Source: Duganella sp. SG902 (GTDB lineage Bacteria; Pseudomonadota; Gammaproteobacteria; Burkholderiales; Burkholderiaceae_D). From it: a stretch of DNA of 64,000 nt. The notes under the pieces were generated by a model. It made no database searches and had not been told where the DNA came from. It saw only the letters and a program-made list of their open reading frames with translations. Positions 32,615 to 40,345 of the stretch are shown here, in pieces. The stretch is from assembly GCF_013376005.1 (NCBI RefSeq), contig NZ_JABMJK010000006.1:310001-374000 (forward strand), in the 5' to 3' direction. Position 1 is the first letter of the stretch; each line of letters begins with the position of its first letter. Position numbers and translations under genes: made by a program.

Positions 32615-33808
32615 CTACCCGGGCCAGGCGCAGGTGCGGAAACCTGCAAAGATATCGTCGCGTTCCGGCAGGTAGAAATTACGGAATTTGGCCGAGCCAA
32701 AGCGCGACGGCGTGACGAACGACGCCCCGCGCAGCACCTGGTGCGTGTGGAACCACGGCTCCGAGTATTCAAGGTAGCGATCCGCCTTGAAGTCCGGATA
32801 AGGCTCGAACGGCGACGCCGTCCACTCCCACAGCTGCCCCCAGCGAAACGCCGGATGACCCGACAAAGCCGCGTATTCCCACTCGGCCTCGGTCGGCAGG
32901 CGGCGACCGGCCCAGGCGCAATAAGCCTGGGCTTCATATAGATTCACGTGCCGCACCGGCTCCGCGCCGGCCAGGGTGCACAGCTTCCCGAAGCGCACGG
33001 TGCGCCACTGCCCGCCGTCGCGCTGCCAGTAGCGCGGCGCCGAACGCTCCTGGCGCATCAGCCAGTCGGCGCCGGCCTGGCTCCAGAACTGGCGGTTGTC
33101 ATAGCCGCCATCGGCGACGAAATCCGCATACTGGGCGTTGGTCACCAGTGTGCTATCCATGCGAAACGGCGCCACGTGGAAGGCATGCGACTGGCGCTCG
33201 TTATCGAACACAAAGCCGGTGCCGGCCTTGCTGCCCAGTTGGATAATCCCGCCGGGGAAGCTGATCTCCGACGGCGCAAACGCGCCCAGCACCTCGCCGG
33301 TCTGCGGCAGCGGCGTGGGCAGGCCCAGTGTCTGCAAGGTGTAGTGGAATGCCTCGCCATGCATGTCCTCATGCGCCAGCGCCAGCCGATATGGGTACAA
33401 GGCCTCGTCGGTATTAGCCTCGCGCGAGAGCTTGTCGAGCACGCGGTCCAGCACTTCGTGACAGTAGGTCTTGACGCCGCCGGTGCTGGGCAGATCCAGC
33501 GTCCAGCGGCTGCGGTGCGGCACGCGCGCGGAGTCGAACCAGTCGTCCCCCTTGGTCAGCAGGCAGTTGCCGTTGGCGTCCGCCGGATGGCTGGACGCGG
33601 CCTCGCGCAGAATAAACCATTCGGCAAACCACGCCGTATGACCCAGCTCCCACAGCGGCGGATTGATGATGCGCAGCTGCGGCACGCGCGTCGGCGCGTC
33701 CATGCCCGCCGCGACAAAACTATCGAACAGCGACAGCGTATAATCCCGGGCATGCTGAAGGGCTTCAGCCATCTGCTGCGAGGTGGCGTTCCTGAATGAA
33801 GAAGTCAT
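32615..33808 (-). CDS. senA: Selenoneine synthase SenA (EgtB-type non-heme iron enzyme)
   Basis: 397 aa EgtB homologue. The N-terminal DinB-like domain has H57 in LWELGHTAWFAEWF and the HX3HXE iron motif AHEDMHGE (H146, H150, E152). The C-terminal formylglycine-generating-enzyme-like domain has AGRRLPTEAEWEYAA and VLRGASFVTPSRF. It diverges from senB and senC/selD. SenA is known to join hercynine to a selenosugar, leading to selenoneine. A second, more canonical EgtB lies 4.2 kb away, which supports separate roles. The ORF stays open 49 codons further upstream, but that part is antisense to senB; the ATG at 33808 matches the family start. Distinguishing SenA from EgtB rests mainly on context. 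Confidence 0.88.
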   Translation of the reverse strand: MTSSFRNATSQQMAEALQHARDYTLSLFDSFVAAGMDAPTRVPQLRIINPPLWELGHTAWFAEWFILREAASSHPADANGNCLLTKGDDWFDSARVPHRSRWTLDLPSTGGVKTYCHEVLDRVLDKLSREANTDEALYPYRLALAHEDMHGEAFHYTLQTLGLPTPLPQTGEVLGAFAPSEISFPGGIIQLGSKAGTGFVFDNERQSHAFHVAPFRMDSTLVTNAQYADFVADGGYDNRQFWSQAGADWLMRQERSAPRYWQRDGGQWRTVRFGKLCTLAGAEPVRHVNLYEAQAYCAWAGRRLPTEAEWEYAALSGHPAFRWGQLWEWTASPFEPYPDFKADRYLEYSEPWFHTHQVLRGASFVTPSRFGSAKFRNFYLPERDDIFAGFRTCAWPG

Positions 33809-33842
33809 GCGACGATTGTAACCACTTTCAAGCAAAACACCA

Positions 33843-34826
33843 GTGAGCCAAGCACATATCTGGATCGTCAGCCCCGCCTCCGCCCGCAACAACAATGGCA
33901 ACTGGCAGAGTGCCAGCCGCTGGGCGCGATTCCTGCGCACGCGCCACCGCGTCACCCTCGCGCCGCAGTGGCCTGCGGAAGCGGAGACCCAGGCCCCGGC
34001 CGCGCCGCCCGACCTGTTGATCGCCCTGCACGCGCGCCGCTCCGCTCCCTCGCTCGACGCCTGGACGCGCGCCTACCCGACGCGCCCGTCCATCCTGCTG
34101 CTGACCGGCACCGACCTGTATCGCGACATCGAAACCGACGCCAGCGCCCAGCGCTCGCTGCGGCAGGCCGATGCCCTGGTGGTGCTGCAGCGGCATGGCC
34201 TGCAGGTCCTGCCCGCGTCGTTGCGCGCCAAGGCGCGGGTCATCCATCAATCGGCAGCCTCGCTGCGGCCCTTCGTCGGCCTGCGGCGCCACGCCGACAT
34301 CTGCATGGTCGGCCACCTGCGCGAGGAAAAAGACCCGCTCACCTTCATGCGCGCGGCGGCGCTGGTGCGGGCGCCTTCGGCACGGCTGATCCACATCGGC
34401 GGCGCGCTGGAGCCAGCGCTGGCGGCGGCCGCGCAAGCCACCGCCGCCCAACATCCGCGCTATCGCTGGCTGGGCGCGATGCCGCACGCGGCTACGCGTC
34501 AGCGTCTCAAGCGCAGCCGCGCCATGGCGCTGACCTCGCACATGGAGGGCGGCGCCAACGTCATCATCGAAGCCGTGTGCGCCGGCGTGCCGGTGCTGGC
34601 CAGCGACATCGGCGGCAATCGCGGCATGCTGGGCGACGATTACGCCGGCTACTTCCCGGCTGGCGACGCCGCCGCGCTGGCGCGGCTGATCGACCGCGTC
34701 ACCGAAGACCATGACTTCCATGCCATTCTGCGCGCCCAGTGCGACGCCCGCGCGCCGCTGTTCGCGCCGGCCGCCGAGCAAGCGGCGTTGCTGGAGTTGG
34801 TGGATAATCTGCTGCATAAGACTTAA
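33843..34826 (+). CDS. senB: Selenosugar synthase SenB (TIGR04348-type glycosyltransferase)
   Basis: 327 aa GT-B-like protein of the TIGR04348 family, now known as SenB, which makes a selenosugar from selenophosphate and a UDP-sugar. Family motifs are IVSPASARNNNGNWQSASRW at the start, IALHARRSA, LLLTGTDLYRDIETD, MVGHLREEKDP, EGGANVIIEAVCAGVPV and GNRGMLGDDYAGYF. The start is GTG at 33843, only 34 bases from the divergent senA start. The selD/senC gene follows after 15 bases. Cytoplasmic, no signal peptide. Confidence 0.92.
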   Translation: MSQAHIWIVSPASARNNNGNWQSASRWARFLRTRHRVTLAPQWPAEAETQAPAAPPDLLIALHARRSAPSLDAWTRAYPTRPSILLLTGTDLYRDIETDASAQRSLRQADALVVLQRHGLQVLPASLRAKARVIHQSAASLRPFVGLRRHADICMVGHLREEKDPLTFMRAAALVRAPSARLIHIGGALEPALAAAAQATAAQHPRYRWLGAMPHAATRQRLKRSRAMALTSHMEGGANVIIEAVCAGVPVLASDIGGNRGMLGDDYAGYFPAGDAAALARLIDRVTEDHDFHAILRAQCDARAPLFAPAAEQAALLELVDNLLHKT

Positions 34827-34841
34827 CCAAGGATGCCAACC

Positions 34842-35888
34842 ATGAGCGACGCCCCCATCAAACTCACCTCCTTCTCGCACGGCGGCGGCTGCGGCTGCAA
34901 AATCGCGCCCGGCGTGCTATCCGAGATCCTGAAGAACTCCAACGGCTTCCCGGTGCCCAAGGAACTGCTGGTCGGGATCGAGACCGCCGACGACGCCGCC
35001 GTCTATAAACTGAATGACGAGCAGGCGCTGATCGCCACCACCGACTTCTTCATGCCGATCGTGGACGACCCGTACGACTTCGGCCGCATCGCCGCCACCA
35101 ACGCCATCTCCGACGTGTACGCCATGGGCGGCACGCCGATCATGGCACTGGCACTGGTGGGCATGCCGATCAACAAACTGCCGGTTGAGACCATCGGCCA
35201 GATCATCAAGGGCGGCGAATCGATTTGCGCCGAAGCCGGCATCCCCATCGCCGGCGGCCACACCATCGACTCGGTCGAGCCGATCTACGGCCTGGTGGTC
35301 ATGGGCCTGGTCCATCCCTCGAAAGTCAAGCGCAACGCGGACGCCCAGGCCGGCGATGTGCTCATTCTCGGCAAACCGCTGGGCGTGGGCGTGCTGTCGG
35401 CGGCGCTGAAGAAGGACGCGCTGGACGCGGCAGGCTACCAGGCCATGATCGCCAACACCACCAAGCTGAATAAACCGGGCAAGGCGCTGTCCGAGCTGCC
35501 GGGCGTGCACGCGCTGACCGACGTCACCGGTTTCGGCCTGCTGGGCCACCTGCTGGAGCTGGCGCGCGGCGCCAGGCTGGAGGCGCATCTGGAAATGAGC
35601 AAGATCCCGCTGCTGCCGGGCGTCGAACAACTGGCGCACGACGGCTATTTTACCGGCGCCTCCGGCCGCAACTGGGCCGCCTACGGCGCCGAGGTCACGC
35701 TGGCGGAATCGATCACGCCCGCCCAGCACTCGCTGCTGACCGACCCACAGACCTCCGGCGGCCTGCTGGTCTCCTGCGACGCGGCCAGCGTGGACCAGGT
35801 CCTGGCCCTGTTCCATCGCGAAGGCTTCGGCGAAGCCGCCGTCATCGGCCGCATGGCCGCCGGCCCGGCGCGTGTCAATGTAGCCTAA
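34842..35888 (+). CDS. selD: Selenide, water dikinase SelD (SenC)
   Basis: 348 aa. Makes selenophosphate from selenide and ATP. The flexible N-terminal loop SHGGGCGCKIAPG holds the catalytic Cys (Cys, not selenocysteine) and a lysine; ATP-binding motifs include DDAAVYKL, TTDFFMPIVDDPYDFGRIAATNA, GGHTIDSVEPI and TDVTGFGLLGHL. The length matches E. coli SelD (347 aa). The ATG at 34842 is preferred over 34833 because AAGGA is eight bases before it. It sits directly after senB, so its product is likely channelled to SenB as well as to other selenophosphate users. No selA, selB or Sec tRNA gene is present in the window. Confidence 0.96.
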   Translation: MSDAPIKLTSFSHGGGCGCKIAPGVLSEILKNSNGFPVPKELLVGIETADDAAVYKLNDEQALIATTDFFMPIVDDPYDFGRIAATNAISDVYAMGGTPIMALALVGMPINKLPVETIGQIIKGGESICAEAGIPIAGGHTIDSVEPIYGLVVMGLVHPSKVKRNADAQAGDVLILGKPLGVGVLSAALKKDALDAAGYQAMIANTTKLNKPGKALSELPGVHALTDVTGFGLLGHLLELARGARLEAHLEMSKIPLLPGVEQLAHDGYFTGASGRNWAAYGAEVTLAESITPAQHSLLTDPQTSGGLLVSCDAASVDQVLALFHREGFGEAAVIGRMAAGPARVNVA

Positions 35889-35910
35889 ACGACAACCCCG
35901 CCAATTTCGC

Positions 35911-35940
35911 TTGACGACATCGGCGGGGATCGCTTACATT
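35911..35940 (+). promoter_or_regulatory. sigma-70 promoter of the leuL-leuA unit
   Basis: TTGACG (35911-35916), 18 bases, TACATT (35935-35940). The predicted start point is near 35947, the A of the leader-peptide ATG. An inverted repeat CCCCGCC (35896-35902) / GGCGGGG (35922-35928) spans the -35 box and could serve as an operator or as the end hairpin of the selD transcript. Confidence 0.6.
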
Positions 35941-35946
35941 CTAGGA

Positions 35947-36033
35947 ATGATCTCGCATCTGCACCTATCCGCTTTCCTGCTATCGCCTGCCAGCGCCCTA
36001 TCGCTAGCAGCGCGTCTACTAGCGCGCGTTTAA
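35947..36033 (+). CDS. leuL: Leu-rich leader peptide of leuA (LeuL-like)
   Basis: 28-codon ORF MISHLHLSAFLLSPASALSL... ending ARV, with eight leucines of which six are CTA, the rarest leucine codon in this kind of GC-rich genome; codons 24-25 are CTA CTA. It is the first ORF after a good promoter and lies 201 bases upstream of leuA. The peptide has the composition expected of a leucine attenuation leader. There is no spaced Shine-Dalgarno (AGGA abuts the ATG), and the predicted transcription start coincides with the ATG, so it may be leaderless. It is too short to be found by ordinary ORF calling. Confidence 0.72.
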   Translation: MISHLHLSAFLLSPASALSLAARLLARV

Positions 36034-36183
36034 TCCGCGCCTCTGTTGTACCCCGGTGCCGGCCATAAGCCGCACTCGACTCCCCAAAATCAGGAAAGTT
36101 GTACCGATGCTCCCAGCTTTTTCGCACCTGCTAAAACTACCGATCGGTTGCCGCGCCTAGTGTCCCGTGGCCGCGCCGCAGCC
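36002..36183 (+). promoter_or_regulatory. Possible attenuator of leuA
   Basis: Hairpins that compete or follow one another: CGCTAG/CTAGCG (36002-36024), GCGCG/CGCGC (36024-36040, sharing a base with the first), GTGCCGGC/GCCGCAC (36056-36075) and a long imperfect GGTTGCCGCG/CGCGCCGCAGCC (36146-36183) followed by TTT. None has a strong T tail, so termination could be Rho-dependent. The gene-free gap 35889-36234 contains this, the promoter and the leader peptide. Confidence 0.4.
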
Positions 36184-36234
36184 TTTCGCCACATCGTTTA
36201 GCACACCCCACATACAGAATTCAGGAGCACTACC

Positions 36235-37929
36235 ATGATGTTGCAGAACCCAGCGAGCAAATACCGCGCCTTCCCAGCCGTCCAGTTGACCGACCGTACC
36301 TGGCCCAACGCCGTCATCAGCAAACCGCCGATCTGGATGAGCACCGACCTGCGCGACGGTAACCAGGCCTTGATCGAGCCGATGAGCATCGAGAAAAAAC
36401 TGCGCATGTTCGACCTGCTGATCAAGATCGGCCTGAAAGAGATCGAAGTGGGCTTCCCTTCCGCCTCGCAGACCGACTTCGATTTCGTGCGCAAGCTGGT
36501 GGAAGAAAAGCGTATTCCGGACGACGTCACCATCATCGTGCTGACGCAGTCGCGCGATGAGCTGATCCGCCGCACCGTGGAATCGTGCGTCGGCGCCAAG
36601 CGCGCCATCATCCACCTGTATAACTCGGTGGCGCCGGTGTTCCGCAAAGTCGTCTTCGGCATGTCGCGCGAGGAGATCACCAACATCGCCACCACCGGCG
36701 CCAAGCTGGTGAAGGAACTGACCAGGCAGCACCCGGACACCGACTGGGGCTACGAATACACCCCGGAATCCTTCTCCACCACGGAACTGGATTTCTCCAA
36801 GCATATCTGCGACGCCGTGATCGCCATCTTCGAGCCGACCCCGAACAAGAAGATGATCATCAACCTGCCGTCCACCGTGGAATGCAGCACGCCGAACGTC
36901 TACGCCGACCAGATCGAATGGATGTCGCGCAAGCTGACCCGCCGCGACTCGCTGATCATCTCGGTCCACCCGCACAACGACCGCGGCACCGCCGTCGCCT
37001 CGGCGGAACTGGCCGTGATGGCGGGCGCCGACCGCGTCGAGGGCTGCCTGTTCGGCAACGGCGAGCGCACCGGCAACGTCGACCTGGTCACGCTGGCGCT
37101 CAACCTGTACACGCAGGGCGTGCATCCGGGCCTGGACTTCTCCGACATCGACGAAGTGCGCAAAGTGGTCGAGGAGTGCAACCAGCTGCCGGTGCATCCG
37201 CGCCATCCCTACGTGGGCGACCTGGTGTTCACCGCCTTCTCCGGCTCGCACCAGGACGCGATCAAGAAAGGCTTCGCCAAGCAGGAAGCAGGCGCGATCT
37301 GGGAGATCCCTTACCTGCCGATCGACCCGCAGGACCTGGGCCGCAGCTACGACGCCGTCATCCGCGTCAACAGCCAGTCCGGCAAGGGCGGCATGTCCTA
37401 TCTGCTCGAGCAGGACTATGGCCTGGTGCTGCCGCGCCGCCTGCAGATTGAATTCAGCCGCGCGGTGCAGGCCGTGGCCGACCAGACCGGCCTCGAAATC
37501 ACCGCCGAAGGCATCTACGACATCTTCAGCAAGGAATACTTCGAGCAGTCCACGCCGTACGCCTACCAGTCGCACAAGATGGTGGAAGACACCAGCAGTG
37601 ACGAGCCGGTGCAGATCGACATCGCCCTGATCCATCGCGGCGCGCCACTGGCGCTGCAGGGCGGCGGCAATGGTCCGATCGACGCCTTCGTCGACGCACT
37701 GGGCCTGGACATCAAACTGATGGACTACCATGAGCACTCGATCGGCTCGGGCGCCAACGCCAAGGCGGCGTGCTATGTCGAACTGCGTCTGGCCAACGGC
37801 CCGACCCTGTTCGGCGCGGCCACCGACAGCAACATCCTGACCGCCTCGTTCAAGGCCGTGCTGAGCGCCGTCAACCGCCAGCTGGCGCGCGTGGAAGCAG
37901 GCCAGGCGCAAGGCCAGGTAGCGGCATAA
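36235..37929 (+). CDS. leuA: 2-isopropylmalate synthase LeuA
   Basis: 564 aa. First committed step of leucine synthesis: acetyl-CoA plus 2-oxoisovalerate. The catalytic start [16 protein letters not shown], the metal-binding [17 protein letters not shown] and [19 protein letters not shown], and a C-terminal regulatory domain (~430-560) for leucine feedback are present. This is the longer ~560-aa class common in betaproteobacteria and actinobacteria. Two consecutive ATGs occur; AGGAG is eight bases before the first. The leader peptide upstream suggests control by leucyl-tRNA supply. Its place between the selenoneine and ergothioneine genes shows no evident functional link. Confidence 0.96.
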
Positions 37930-37940
37930 CCCCACCCTAA

Positions 37941-38026
37941 TGCCGCTAATCTAAGTTTTTTTGACCGCAAACTAACGAGCCGTCATTCCCGCGCAGGCGG
38001 GAATGACGGCTCGTACTTAGCGGCAT
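37941..38026. repeat. Nested REP-like palindrome between leuA and egtB
   Basis: A perfect 18-bp inverted repeat (37975-37992 and 37997-38014, loop GCAG) carries the GTCATTCCCGC/GCGGGAATGAC core seen in dispersed palindromic repeats of many proteobacteria. It is enclosed by a second 9-bp pair TGCCGCTAA (37941-37949) / TTAGCGGCA (38018-38026). A 7-T run lies on the plus strand before the inner stem. It probably ends transcription of both convergent genes. Confidence 0.8.
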
Positions 38027-38047: not shown

Positions 38048-39295
38048 TTAACCGTCGATCTGGCGGGCCAGGCGGATGCCGGTGAATTGCCAGCGGGCGC
38101 CGGCCGGGAAGAAGTTGCGGTAACTGGCCCGCGCATGGCCTTCCGGTGTCGCGCACGAGGAACCGCGCAGCACGTACTGGTTCAGCATGAATTTGCCGTT
38201 GTATTCGCCCAGCGCCCCCTCGGCCGCCGCAAAGCCGGGGTATGGCGCGTAGCTGCTGCTGGTCCATTGCCAGCAATGGCCGAACATTTGCCGAAGCCCG
38301 CCTCCCGCCCCCGCGCCGGCGGGATGCAGCGAGCCGGTTTCGATCGATGCCCGCCCGTGCGCGGCGGCGTATTCCCATTCCGCCTCGGTCGGCAGGCGCG
38401 CATCGGCCCAGTGGGCATAGGCGTCCGCCTCGAACAAGGATACATGCGTGACCGGTCGCTGCAAGTCCAGCGGCCGCGGACCATGCAGCGTAAACTCCTG
38501 CCACCCGCCCTGCTCGTCCTGGAACCAGTAGATCGGCGCTTTCAGGTTTTGCGCGCGCACCCAGTCCCACCCTTCGGCCAGCCACAGCGCGGCGTTGAAG
38601 TAGCCGCCAGCGTTGATGAAGGCCAGATACTCGCCATTGGTCACCAGCCGCGAGGCCAGCGCGAACGGTGCCACGTATTGTTTGTGGCGCGGAAGTTCGT
38701 TGTCGAAGCTGAAGCCGTCGCCATGATGGCCGATCTCCGCCAGGCCCCCCTCGAACGCCTGCCATGCCAGCGGCGCCGCGACCGCGGCGGCCGGCAGCGG
38801 TATCGCCATGTAGGCCGGCCGCAGCAGGCTTTGCGCCAGCAGGTGCTTGACGTCGGTCAGCATCAATTCCTGGTGCTGCTGCTCGTGCTGCATGCCCAGC
38901 GTGATTAGCATCGACAGCTCGGCGCGCCGCGCCGCATCCAGCTCACCCGCCAGCAGCCGCGCCATGCGTCCATCCACATTGGCGCGGTAGGCGCGCACCT
39001 CGGCCATCGAGGGCCGCGTCAGCAGGCCGCGCTGCGCGCGCGGGTGCTTTTCGCCAATGCCGTTGTAGTAGGAGTTGAACAGGATGCGGAACGCCGGATG
39101 AAACGGCGCGAAGCCGCGTTCCATGCGTTCCAGGATGAAGGTCTCGAAGAACCAGGTGGTGTGCGCCAGGTGCCATTTGATCGGGCTGGCGTCGGGCATC
39201 GATTGCGCGCCGCAGTCTTCGTCCGACAGCGGCTCGGCCAGCGCCAGCGTGTGTTTGCGTACCGCGTCGTAGCGGGCGCCCAGTTGGTCCATCAT
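38048..39295 (-). CDS. egtB: Ergothioneine biosynthesis protein EgtB
   Basis: 415 aa non-heme iron sulfoxide synthase that joins a thiol donor to hercynine. The DinB domain has H45 in WHLAHTTWFFETF and the HX3HXE motif GMQHEQQHQELML (H137, H141, E143). The FGE-sulfatase-like domain has DARLPTEAEWEYAAA, FGHCWQWTSSSYAPYPGF and LRGSSCATPEGHARASYRNFF. It begins two bases after the egtD stop, so the two are one operon. No egtA, egtC or egtE is nearby; enzymes using cysteine directly, with a promiscuous C-S lyase, would explain that. The start could also be the next ATG (39292). More canonical than the SenA protein. Confidence 0.93.
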   Translation of the reverse strand: MMDQLGARYDAVRKHTLALAEPLSDEDCGAQSMPDASPIKWHLAHTTWFFETFILERMERGFAPFHPAFRILFNSYYNGIGEKHPRAQRGLLTRPSMAEVRAYRANVDGRMARLLAGELDAARRAELSMLITLGMQHEQQHQELMLTDVKHLLAQSLLRPAYMAIPLPAAAVAAPLAWQAFEGGLAEIGHHGDGFSFDNELPRHKQYVAPFALASRLVTNGEYLAFINAGGYFNAALWLAEGWDWVRAQNLKAPIYWFQDEQGGWQEFTLHGPRPLDLQRPVTHVSLFEADAYAHWADARLPTEAEWEYAAAHGRASIETGSLHPAGAGAGGGLRQMFGHCWQWTSSSYAPYPGFAAAEGALGEYNGKFMLNQYVLRGSSCATPEGHARASYRNFFPAGARWQFTGIRLARQIDG

Positions 39296-39297
39296 CC

Positions 39298-40299
39298 TCA
39301 AATCACCCGTGCGTGAATGACGGCGAACCAATTGTCTTCATCGGTCCACATGCGCGTGGTGGCGAAGCCGGCCCGCTCCAGCAAACCGACAAGGGACTGG
39401 CGCGTGTATTTGTAGCTGTCTTCCGTGTGTATGCGCTCGCCGCGCGCGAAATCGCGCTCGCCGCCACGCCAGCTCACCGTCAGCGGGCAGCGCGCCTCCA
39501 GGTGCATCTCGATGCGGCTATGCTCGAAGTCGAAGAAGGCCACGTGCTTCCACTGCTCGACATCGAAGTCCGCCCCCGCCAGATGGTTCAGGTGGCGCAG
39601 CATGTTCAGGTTGAAGGCGGCGGTCACGCCCAGCGCGTCGTCGTAGGCCGCATCCAGCACGGCGTGATCCTTGATCAGGTCGACCCCGATCAACAGGCCG
39701 CCGTCCGGCCCCGCGTTGGCGCGCAGCCCGCGCAAGAATTCCACCGCCTGCGCCGGCGCGAAGTTGCCGATCGAGGAACCAGGATAAAAGAACAGGCGGC
39801 GCCCAGTGTGCACGCTGTCCGGCAAGCTGAAGCCGTTGGAAAAATCCAGCCCCAGCGCCGTCATTTCAATCTGCGGGAAGCGCTGCCGCAATTGCGCCAC
39901 GGCGCCCTCCAGGAAGTCGCGCGAGATATCGACCGGCACGTACTGCGCCGGCCGCAGCAGCGGGAACAGCGACGCCGCCTTGGCGCAGTTGCCCGCGCCC
40001 AGGTCGATCATGGTGGCGCCGGGGCCAATCGCATGCGCCATGTCGGCGCCATAGGCCTTGAAGATGGCGGCCTCGGTGCGGGTGGGATAATACTCGGGCA
40101 GTTCGCAGATCGCTTCAAACAGCTTGGACCCCAGGCCGTCGTACAGGAACTTGGGCGAGGTATGCGCCTTGGCCGCCAGCAGGCCGGCGCTGATTTCCGC
40201 GATCACCTCCGGGCTGCCATGGGCGGGCCGTGGCGGCGGCGGCATGTTGCTGTCTACGGGCGACACAACACGAATCGCCGGGGAGCGGGACATATGCAT
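39298..40299 (-). CDS. egtD: L-histidine N-alpha-methyltransferase EgtD
   Basis: 333 aa. Trimethylates histidine with three SAM to give hercynine, the shared precursor of ergothioneine and selenoneine. Motifs: SPKFLYDGLGSKLFEAICELPEYYPTRTE cut here into its recognisable parts (LYDGLGSKLFE; LPEYYPTRTE), the SAM loop MIDLGAGNCAKAA, and FFYPGSSIGNF. Followed immediately by egtB. In-frame ATGs occur at 40329, 40299 and 40293; 40299 is chosen as giving the usual length, though the ribosome-binding site is weak (AAAGG 11 bases away). Divergent from the selenium-type ABC importer. Confidence 0.93.
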   Translation of the reverse strand: MHMSRSPAIRVVSPVDSNMPPPPRPAHGSPEVIAEISAGLLAAKAHTSPKFLYDGLGSKLFEAICELPEYYPTRTEAAIFKAYGADMAHAIGPGATMIDLGAGNCAKAASLFPLLRPAQYVPVDISRDFLEGAVAQLRQRFPQIEMTALGLDFSNGFSLPDSVHTGRRLFFYPGSSIGNFAPAQAVEFLRGLRANAGPDGGLLIGVDLIKDHAVLDAAYDDALGVTAAFNLNMLRHLNHLAGADFDVEQWKHVAFFDFEHSRIEMHLEARCPLTVSWRGGERDFARGERIHTEDSYKYTRQSLVGLLERAGFATTRMWTDEDNWFAVIHARVI

Positions 40300-40345
40300 G
40301 GGATGCTCTGCCTTTATTCTGGGGGTCATCGGTGGAGATGATTTT

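Follow-up and report, generated by a model that had tools for sequence, protein, structure and literature searches.

What does the DNA upstream of leuA in Duganella sp. SG902 encode, and how might it make expression of this gene depend on leucine? An earlier note on the locus had drawn attention to a 28-codon, Leu- and CTA-rich reading frame that it took for a possibly leaderless attenuation peptide. We followed up this proposal in a 64,000-nucleotide stretch of the genome (hereafter the window), whose numbering is used throughout; all leader features described lie on the + strand. The gene downstream of the reading frame is indeed leuA: it occupies positions 36235-37929 of the + strand, follows a Shine-Dalgarno site CAGGAG at 36222-36227, and encodes a protein of 564 aa assigned to 2-isopropylmalate synthase by NCBIfam models NF002991 and TIGR00970, both above cut-off. 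It is flanked by a selenoneine cluster (SenA, SenB, and SelD; 32618-35885) and by the ergothioneine genes EgtB and EgtD (38051-40329), all of these assignments also scoring above NCBIfam cut-offs. Just 3′ of leuA, at 37975-38014, lies a perfect inverted repeat with 18-nt arms (ACGAGCCGTCATTCCCGC and GCGGGAATGACGGCTCGT) separated by 4 nt, which could be either a dispersed repeat or a terminator.

The first leader reading frame, uORF1 (35947-36033, from ATG to TAA), would encode the predicted leaderless leader peptide MISHLHLSAFLLSPASALSLAARLLARV. As the earlier note had counted, eight of its 28 codons specify leucine, and six of these eight are CTA. In the window, CTA accounts for only 11 of the 1533 Leu codons (0.7%) in 33 long ORFs, which were chosen by length and GC3 and represent codon usage of the window rather than of the whole genome; against this background, the binomial probability of at least six CTA codons among eight Leu codons is about 4e-12. 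Among the 2917 start-to-stop frames of fewer than 60 codons in the window, with nested starts counted apart, the uORF1 frame holds six or seven CTA codons depending on the start codon, and the runner-up holds four. CTA also makes up 620 of the 1026 Leu codons (60%) in 135 uORF1 sequences (134 from the family of the window plus L039), and none of the 2565 Leu codons in the 56 leuA genes that were readable throughout. Purifying selection on the amino acids of uORF1 is mild, with pN/pS values of 0.64 in label g1 (the genus of the window) and 0.73 in label g30.

uORF1 is preceded by the promoter TTGACG-18-TACATT at 35911-35940 (-35 hexamer at 35911-35916, TACATT at 35935-35940), which had been described before and which our scan recovered as the sole promoter-like site in 35800-36300 (shuffle mean 0.2). 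TACATT ends 6 nt before the ATG, and transcription is therefore predicted to start at or adjoining 35947, on the start codon itself. For comparison, leuA upstream regions were drawn from 60 relatives, 59 of which gave some match, and from 245 family genomes, 178 of which matched at 1e-180; the regions analyzed were 142 from the family, representing part of the 178 matched genomes, and seven from other families of the order. In a scan of the family loci with a 700-nt limit, a TTGAC promoter followed after 3-12 nt by a Leu-rich ORF was found in 141 of 142 upstream regions, spread over 21 genus labels, and the same scan of the opposite strand found it in 0 of 142. An earlier scan for promoter and ORF, with a 520-nt limit and covering the family together with the other families, had found 135 of 149. 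The promoter spacer is 18 nt in 133 of the 141 loci and 17 nt in the other eight. As scored, the -10-to-ATG gap is 6 nt in 100 loci and 7 nt in 35, with 5 nt in one, 9 nt in three, and 12 nt in two; in both loci with the 12-nt gap (L027 and L074), the scan overlooked an ATG closer by, at 6 nt. The sole miss, L106, has a visible TTGACA...TTACAGT and ATG outside the scan criteria. Nine loci from other families (L247, L250, L252, L253, L254, L256, L258, L259, and L260) likewise carry a Leu-rich uORF1, mostly ending like LLRxxR, 6 to 9 nt after a -10-like hexamer. With 135 of the family loci showing a gap of 6 or 7 nt, we predict that the uORF1 peptide is leaderless. The conservation of the Leu-rich ORF before leuA in relatives, which the earlier note had named as a check, was thus borne out, with a nearly constant distance between promoter and ATG. 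The proposed leaderless leucine attenuation peptide holds up in that its start codon coincides with the predicted transcription start across 21 genus labels, but it accounts for only the first half of the leader: the interval under discussion also contains a second Leu- and CTA-rich ORF and a covarying RNA element, neither of which had been mentioned.

The second reading frame, uORF2 (36107-36160), follows its own Shine-Dalgarno site CAGGAAAG at 36091-36098 and would encode the peptide MLPAFSHLLKLPIGCRA, which ends in LKLPIGCRA before a TAG at 36158-36160. Like uORF1, it is enriched in codons for leucine, the end product of the pathway, and CTA accounts for 284 of the 743 Leu codons (38%) across 114 uORF2 sequences. 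Tandem uORF1 and uORF2 are the usual arrangement in the family. By sequence pattern, uORF2 was recognized in 117 of the 142 family loci; the 25 others include five loci that have uORF1 only and all six of label g51, and in the remainder, as far as they were read, the frame stops earlier or continues beyond the RNA element's main helix (S1, below). Since the RNA element is present in 18 of these 25 loci, uORF2 either ends elsewhere or is dispensable there. An AGGAA-type site was found in 77 loci, and in all 77 the ATG that follows it shares the reading frame of the conserved CTA-CCG-ATC-GGT codons, free of stops, although the distance varies from 30 to 126 nt. Many uORF2 sequences in labels g27, g40, g42, g46, and g48 have 38 codons and resemble one another up to the start (MHFKxxPVTF...LLPLPIGCLASR), with a pN/pS of 0.54 over codons 1-26 in 12 distinct sequences. 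No clear Shine-Dalgarno site for uORF2 was seen in these five labels. The last CTA codon of uORF2 (36137-36139 in the window) is nearly invariant: it is present at the equivalent position in 103 of 104 aligned sequences and lies 9 nt 5′ of helix S1 in 100 of 104.

The end of uORF2 enters an RNA element for which we built a covariance model, R1; the window matches it at 36119-36194 with 79.1 bits and an E-value of 1.8e-14, its sequence having been in the model-building set. Covariation defines two helices. Helix S1 pairs GGTTGCCGCGC (36146-36156), the first six bases of which pair unbroken in the window genome, with GCGCCGCAGCC (36173-36183). Helix S2 pairs GTGGC (36167-36171), inside the S1 loop, with GCCAC (36188-36192), and so crosses S1 in the leader RNA. 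In alignment A1, which comprises 104 of 145 distinct sequences hand-picked to thin close relatives, 97.3% of the cells of the 11 S1 pairs are paired, with changes on both sides in 8 of 11; the percentages paired in A1 are inflated by the choice of loci through a scan that demanded at least six S1 pairs, G[TC]GG[CT], and GCC[AG]C. In A2, which consists of 24 matches of a model holding the S1 pairs only, though its sequence profile covers the S2 positions, 97.3% of S1 cells are paired with both-side changes in 6 of 11 pairs, and 94.8% of S2 cells are paired with both-side changes in 3 of 5. For S1 and S2 in A1, none of 500 shuffles attained any of five measures; related sequences may beat such shuffles without structure, but slid controls, which preserve relatedness, dropped to 22-61% paired. 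S2 varies as CGGCA/TGCCG in L259 (a shift of one pair) and as CTGGC/GCCAG in L251, is imperfect (mismatch or gap) in L246, L253, L254, L256, and L258, and does not form in L255. The uORF2 stop codon falls in the S1 loop in the window. Of the 104 A1 sequences, 87 have the stop of this frame beyond the S1 5′ arm but no farther than the last base of the S2 5′ arm, seven have it inside the S1 5′ arm, and two have it farther on; in eight no stop was met.

The loop between the S1 3′ arm and the S2 3′ arm measures 4 nt in 45 of the 104 sequences and 5 nt in 30 (median 4, range 2-9 nt). For an H-type pseudoknot, such a short loop seems too small to let both helices form in full. Because this median of 4 nt looks too short, we infer that S1 and S2 are probably alternatives rather than helices that both form in full; a pseudoknot of S1 and S2 may form instead. 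A further candidate helix, S3, in which the Leu codons (GCTAC) would pair with GTGGC, was rejected: 89% of its cells are paired, and its covariation is not above shuffles. Nor did RNAalifold find a consensus fold between uORF1 and uORF2 in a MAFFT alignment of 76 loci. Two features recur by eye at 36046-36076 and at the equivalent place in relatives: a motif resembling TTGTACC and a small hairpin of the form CGGC...GCCG (CCGGC/GCCGG-type). Rfam 15 gave no match in the whole window at the gathering score, and none in 35880-36260 at E-values up to 10.

We next describe the distribution of the R1 element. The model matched 135 of the 142 family loci (86 of 92 and 49 of 50), many of these being sequences from which it was built. 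It was absent from seven: L030, L033, L036, L071, L073, L089, and L106. The first five of these, all in label g1, have uORF1 only, ending 81-100 nt before leuA. Across the order, 30 of 399 genomes, from families f1, f4, f20, f21, f25, f31, and f35, carry the element in a search with stricter filters that lose weak matches, and all 31 of the 31 matches precede a leuA homologue. The family genomes with leuA but no match in this search are G077, the source of L089, and G072. R1 matched one genome of family f4 twice, both times ahead of a leuA homologue (L262, G506:C6:214500-215805, match at 1200-1258). In the genome of SG902 itself, the leader match alone is significant; a second, at an E-value of 0.19, is not near a leuA homologue. 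Of 80 named records, 39 gave an R1 match, including Duganella, Pseudoduganella, Rugamonas, Janthinobacterium, Massilia, Herbaspirillum, Noviherbaspirillum, Herminiimonas, Undibacterium, several Alcaligenaceae (Achromobacter and Bordetella trematum among them), a Pandoraea MAG, and others. One of the 39 is partial and weak: L229, 1413-1449, from a Parvibaculum MAG outside Burkholderiales, where it lies before leuA (E-value 7e-4). Neither the Pseudomonas records among the 80 nor Duganella sp. CF458 (L159) gave an R1 match. In L042, a distant member of the order that likewise has no R1 match, the 94 nt directly ahead of leuA show by eye a Leu-rich uORF and, after it, a hairpin carrying a T-run, possibly a classical terminator.

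From these comparisons of sequence, we propose that the leader works as a leucine attenuator in which ribosomes translating two leader peptides act as the sensor, a reading to which we give a probability of roughly 70%. Transcription would begin on or adjoining the uORF1 ATG, ribosomes would load at the RNA end, and they would then meet a run of CTA, the rarest Leu codon here. uORF2, with its own Shine-Dalgarno site in the window genome, would be translated next. With ample charged leucyl-tRNA, ribosomes would complete uORF2 and depart, S1 would form, and leuA would be held down. When leucyl-tRNA is scarce, a ribosome would presumably halt on CTA with its leading edge over the foot of S1. A ribosome covers about 12-13 nt onward from its A-site codon. 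As S1 begins 9 nt after the near-invariant CTA, its foot would be covered by a ribosome halted on that codon, and the covarying helix is thus placed where a ribosome stalled on Leu codons would alter it. With the foot covered, the crossing helix S2 or open RNA would take the place of S1 and leuA would be expressed, the direction of this switch being the one we consider most plausible. Several observations count against an attenuator of two peptides: the 25 family loci in which uORF2 is missing by pattern, the mild amino-acid selection on uORF1, the seven family loci without R1, and the many labels other than that of the window in which uORF2 has no clear Shine-Dalgarno site.

As to how S1 might lower leuA expression, Rho-dependent termination, pausing, and a block of translation are all conceivable. 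An intrinsic terminator was rejected as the output of the switch, because the window scan found no GC-rich hairpin with a U-run after S1 or S2. The scan returned two sites (shuffle mean 0.4), one on the - strand and one weak candidate on the + strand, a stem of 5 bp (36024-36040) that overlaps the uORF1 stop, in keeping with the previous impression that no strong intrinsic terminator follows the peptide. We lean toward Rho-dependent termination: no U-run follows, and the flanking RNA on either side is rich in C and poor in G (0.37 and 0.36 C vs. 0.22 and 0.18 G in the two leader spacers), a base composition that fits Rho and proves nothing.

The strongest competitor of the two-peptide attenuator is a leader whose halves act independently, with uORF2 and S1 forming one leucine sensor and uORF1 not acting through uORF2; uORF1 would then be an attenuator of its own, through structure right after it, or a leaderless loading ramp. 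That each half can stand alone is suggested by the existence of both single-ORF S1 leaders and uORF1-only loci. In the Alcaligenaceae and Pandoraea sequences that were read, a single leader ORF ending in LPIGCRA or similar enters S1, and no separate uORF1 was seen by eye; conversely, L030, L033, L036, L071, and L073 retain uORF1 without an R1 match, and in the window the weak stem over the uORF1 stop has a T-containing tail. The single ORF may also be leaderless, judging from L249, where TTGACA-18-GATAAT ends 8 nt before its ATG; most of the other single-ORF sequences have a poor -10 only, e.g., TTGACT or TAGACT. However, uORF1 (141 of 142) and R1 (135 of 142) occur together in nearly all family loci, and CTA is concentrated in both ORFs; we regard independent halves as a tentative alternative, possible and somewhat less than an even bet.

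In another arrangement, uORF1 would gate uORF2. The segment CTTTCCTG (35972-35979) within uORF1 emerged from a pairing scan as the exact complement of the uORF2 Shine-Dalgarno site. Stalling of a ribosome on the CTA just upstream would mask this segment, free the site, and allow translation of uORF2 to open S1. At least eight contiguous pairs of this type were found in 38 of 42 tested loci of the genus of the window, in each of which no more than 6% of codon shuffles equal the pairing, and fold prediction for the window leader also contains the pairing. It shrinks to four pairs in L025, L026, and L029 and to six in L031, however, and in label g30 all 17 of 17 loci have six pairs, a number that 27-49% of codon shuffles attain as well. 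The pairing is likewise not above shuffles in most other labels, and it was rejected as a family-wide rule. These results suggest a relay in the genus of the window at most, and there we consider it unlikely; we are equally doubtful of the full two-stage switch it would amount to, in which a first peptide, leaderless and rich in CTA, decides whether ribosomes can reach the start of a second, and translation of the second in turn controls the crossing helices. Least probable, to our minds quite improbable, is that the S1/S2 element binds a protein or metabolite and the ORFs merely keep the RNA open. The element is compact and conserved with crossing helices, and a binding protein has likewise been proposed for the actinobacterial LEU element in the part of that report available to us (PMC1262725), but the CTA bias and the 9-nt spacing suit a ribosome and would not be expected for a ligand.

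How does the two-peptide leader compare with known systems? The classical leu operon attenuator of enterobacteria combines an intrinsic terminator with alternative hairpins; the Duganella leader shares with it a leader peptide with Leu codons ahead of leuA, and has no Rfam match. A 2004 comparative study is said to have covered proteobacterial attenuators. Our literature search, which reached few subscription papers, found no paper on a betaproteobacterial leuA leader, and in the literature searched neither a tandem two-peptide design nor a leader in which one ribosome sensor relays to another was found. The nearest parallels are leaderless LeuL1, treated below, and the actinobacterial LEU element upstream of leuA, in which, in the sections consulted, the Leu codons pair with the Shine-Dalgarno site of leuA to form a base stem (Seliverstov et al., 2005; PMC1262725). 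Both are leuA leaders with a Leu-rich peptide, two crossing helices, and no classical terminator as far as that description goes; the Duganella leader differs in its two ORFs and CTA codons, the comparison having been made with the description of LEU rather than with a sequence model (PMC1262725). Pairing of the Leu codons with the leuA Shine-Dalgarno site was rejected here: it reached 0.05 or less in 10 of 167 loci, and on average a fraction of 0.71 of the shuffles paired as well as the observed sequence or better. Because this base stem is not above shuffles, we assign the Duganella leader to leader-peptide attenuation, as a variant, rather than to the LEU elements.

The other parallels concern the first peptide. 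The earlier note considered a leaderless leucine peptide in this lineage to be of interest; the kind had already been reported, since LeuL1 before leuA of Streptomyces lividans is described, in the passages of that paper we drew on, as leaderless and as lacking a typical Rho-independent terminator (PMC8079986). The Duganella uORF1, with its predicted leaderless start, resembles LeuL1 in both respects; LeuL1 differs in being a single 15-residue actinobacterial peptide, with no tandem ORF reported in those passages (PMC8079986). For Sinorhizobium meliloti trpL, the excerpts consulted describe an RNA that begins with the ATG of the leader peptide, as predicted here, but one that serves tryptophan with a single 14-aa peptide and a terminator hairpin (PMC7298713). 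Campylobacter jejuni LeuL, according to the parts of the reports available, is also a 28-aa leader with rare Leu codons including CUA, standing before leuABCD there; it differs in that it was sought with a ribosome binding site, that its RNA ends shortly after the stop, and that it is a single peptide (PMC3847290, PMC11955535).

Our findings thus provide Burkholderiales with a candidate leucine-responsive leader, whose covarying RNA is without an Rfam 15 match in the window. They raise the question of why two leucine sensors should be arranged in tandem, the first apparently leaderless and the second provided with a Shine-Dalgarno site. The natural loss of either half among relatives offers ready comparisons, and the five uORF1-only genomes amount to a natural deletion experiment. 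Leaderless leucine leader peptides, reported in Actinobacteria, would extend to the betaproteobacteria.
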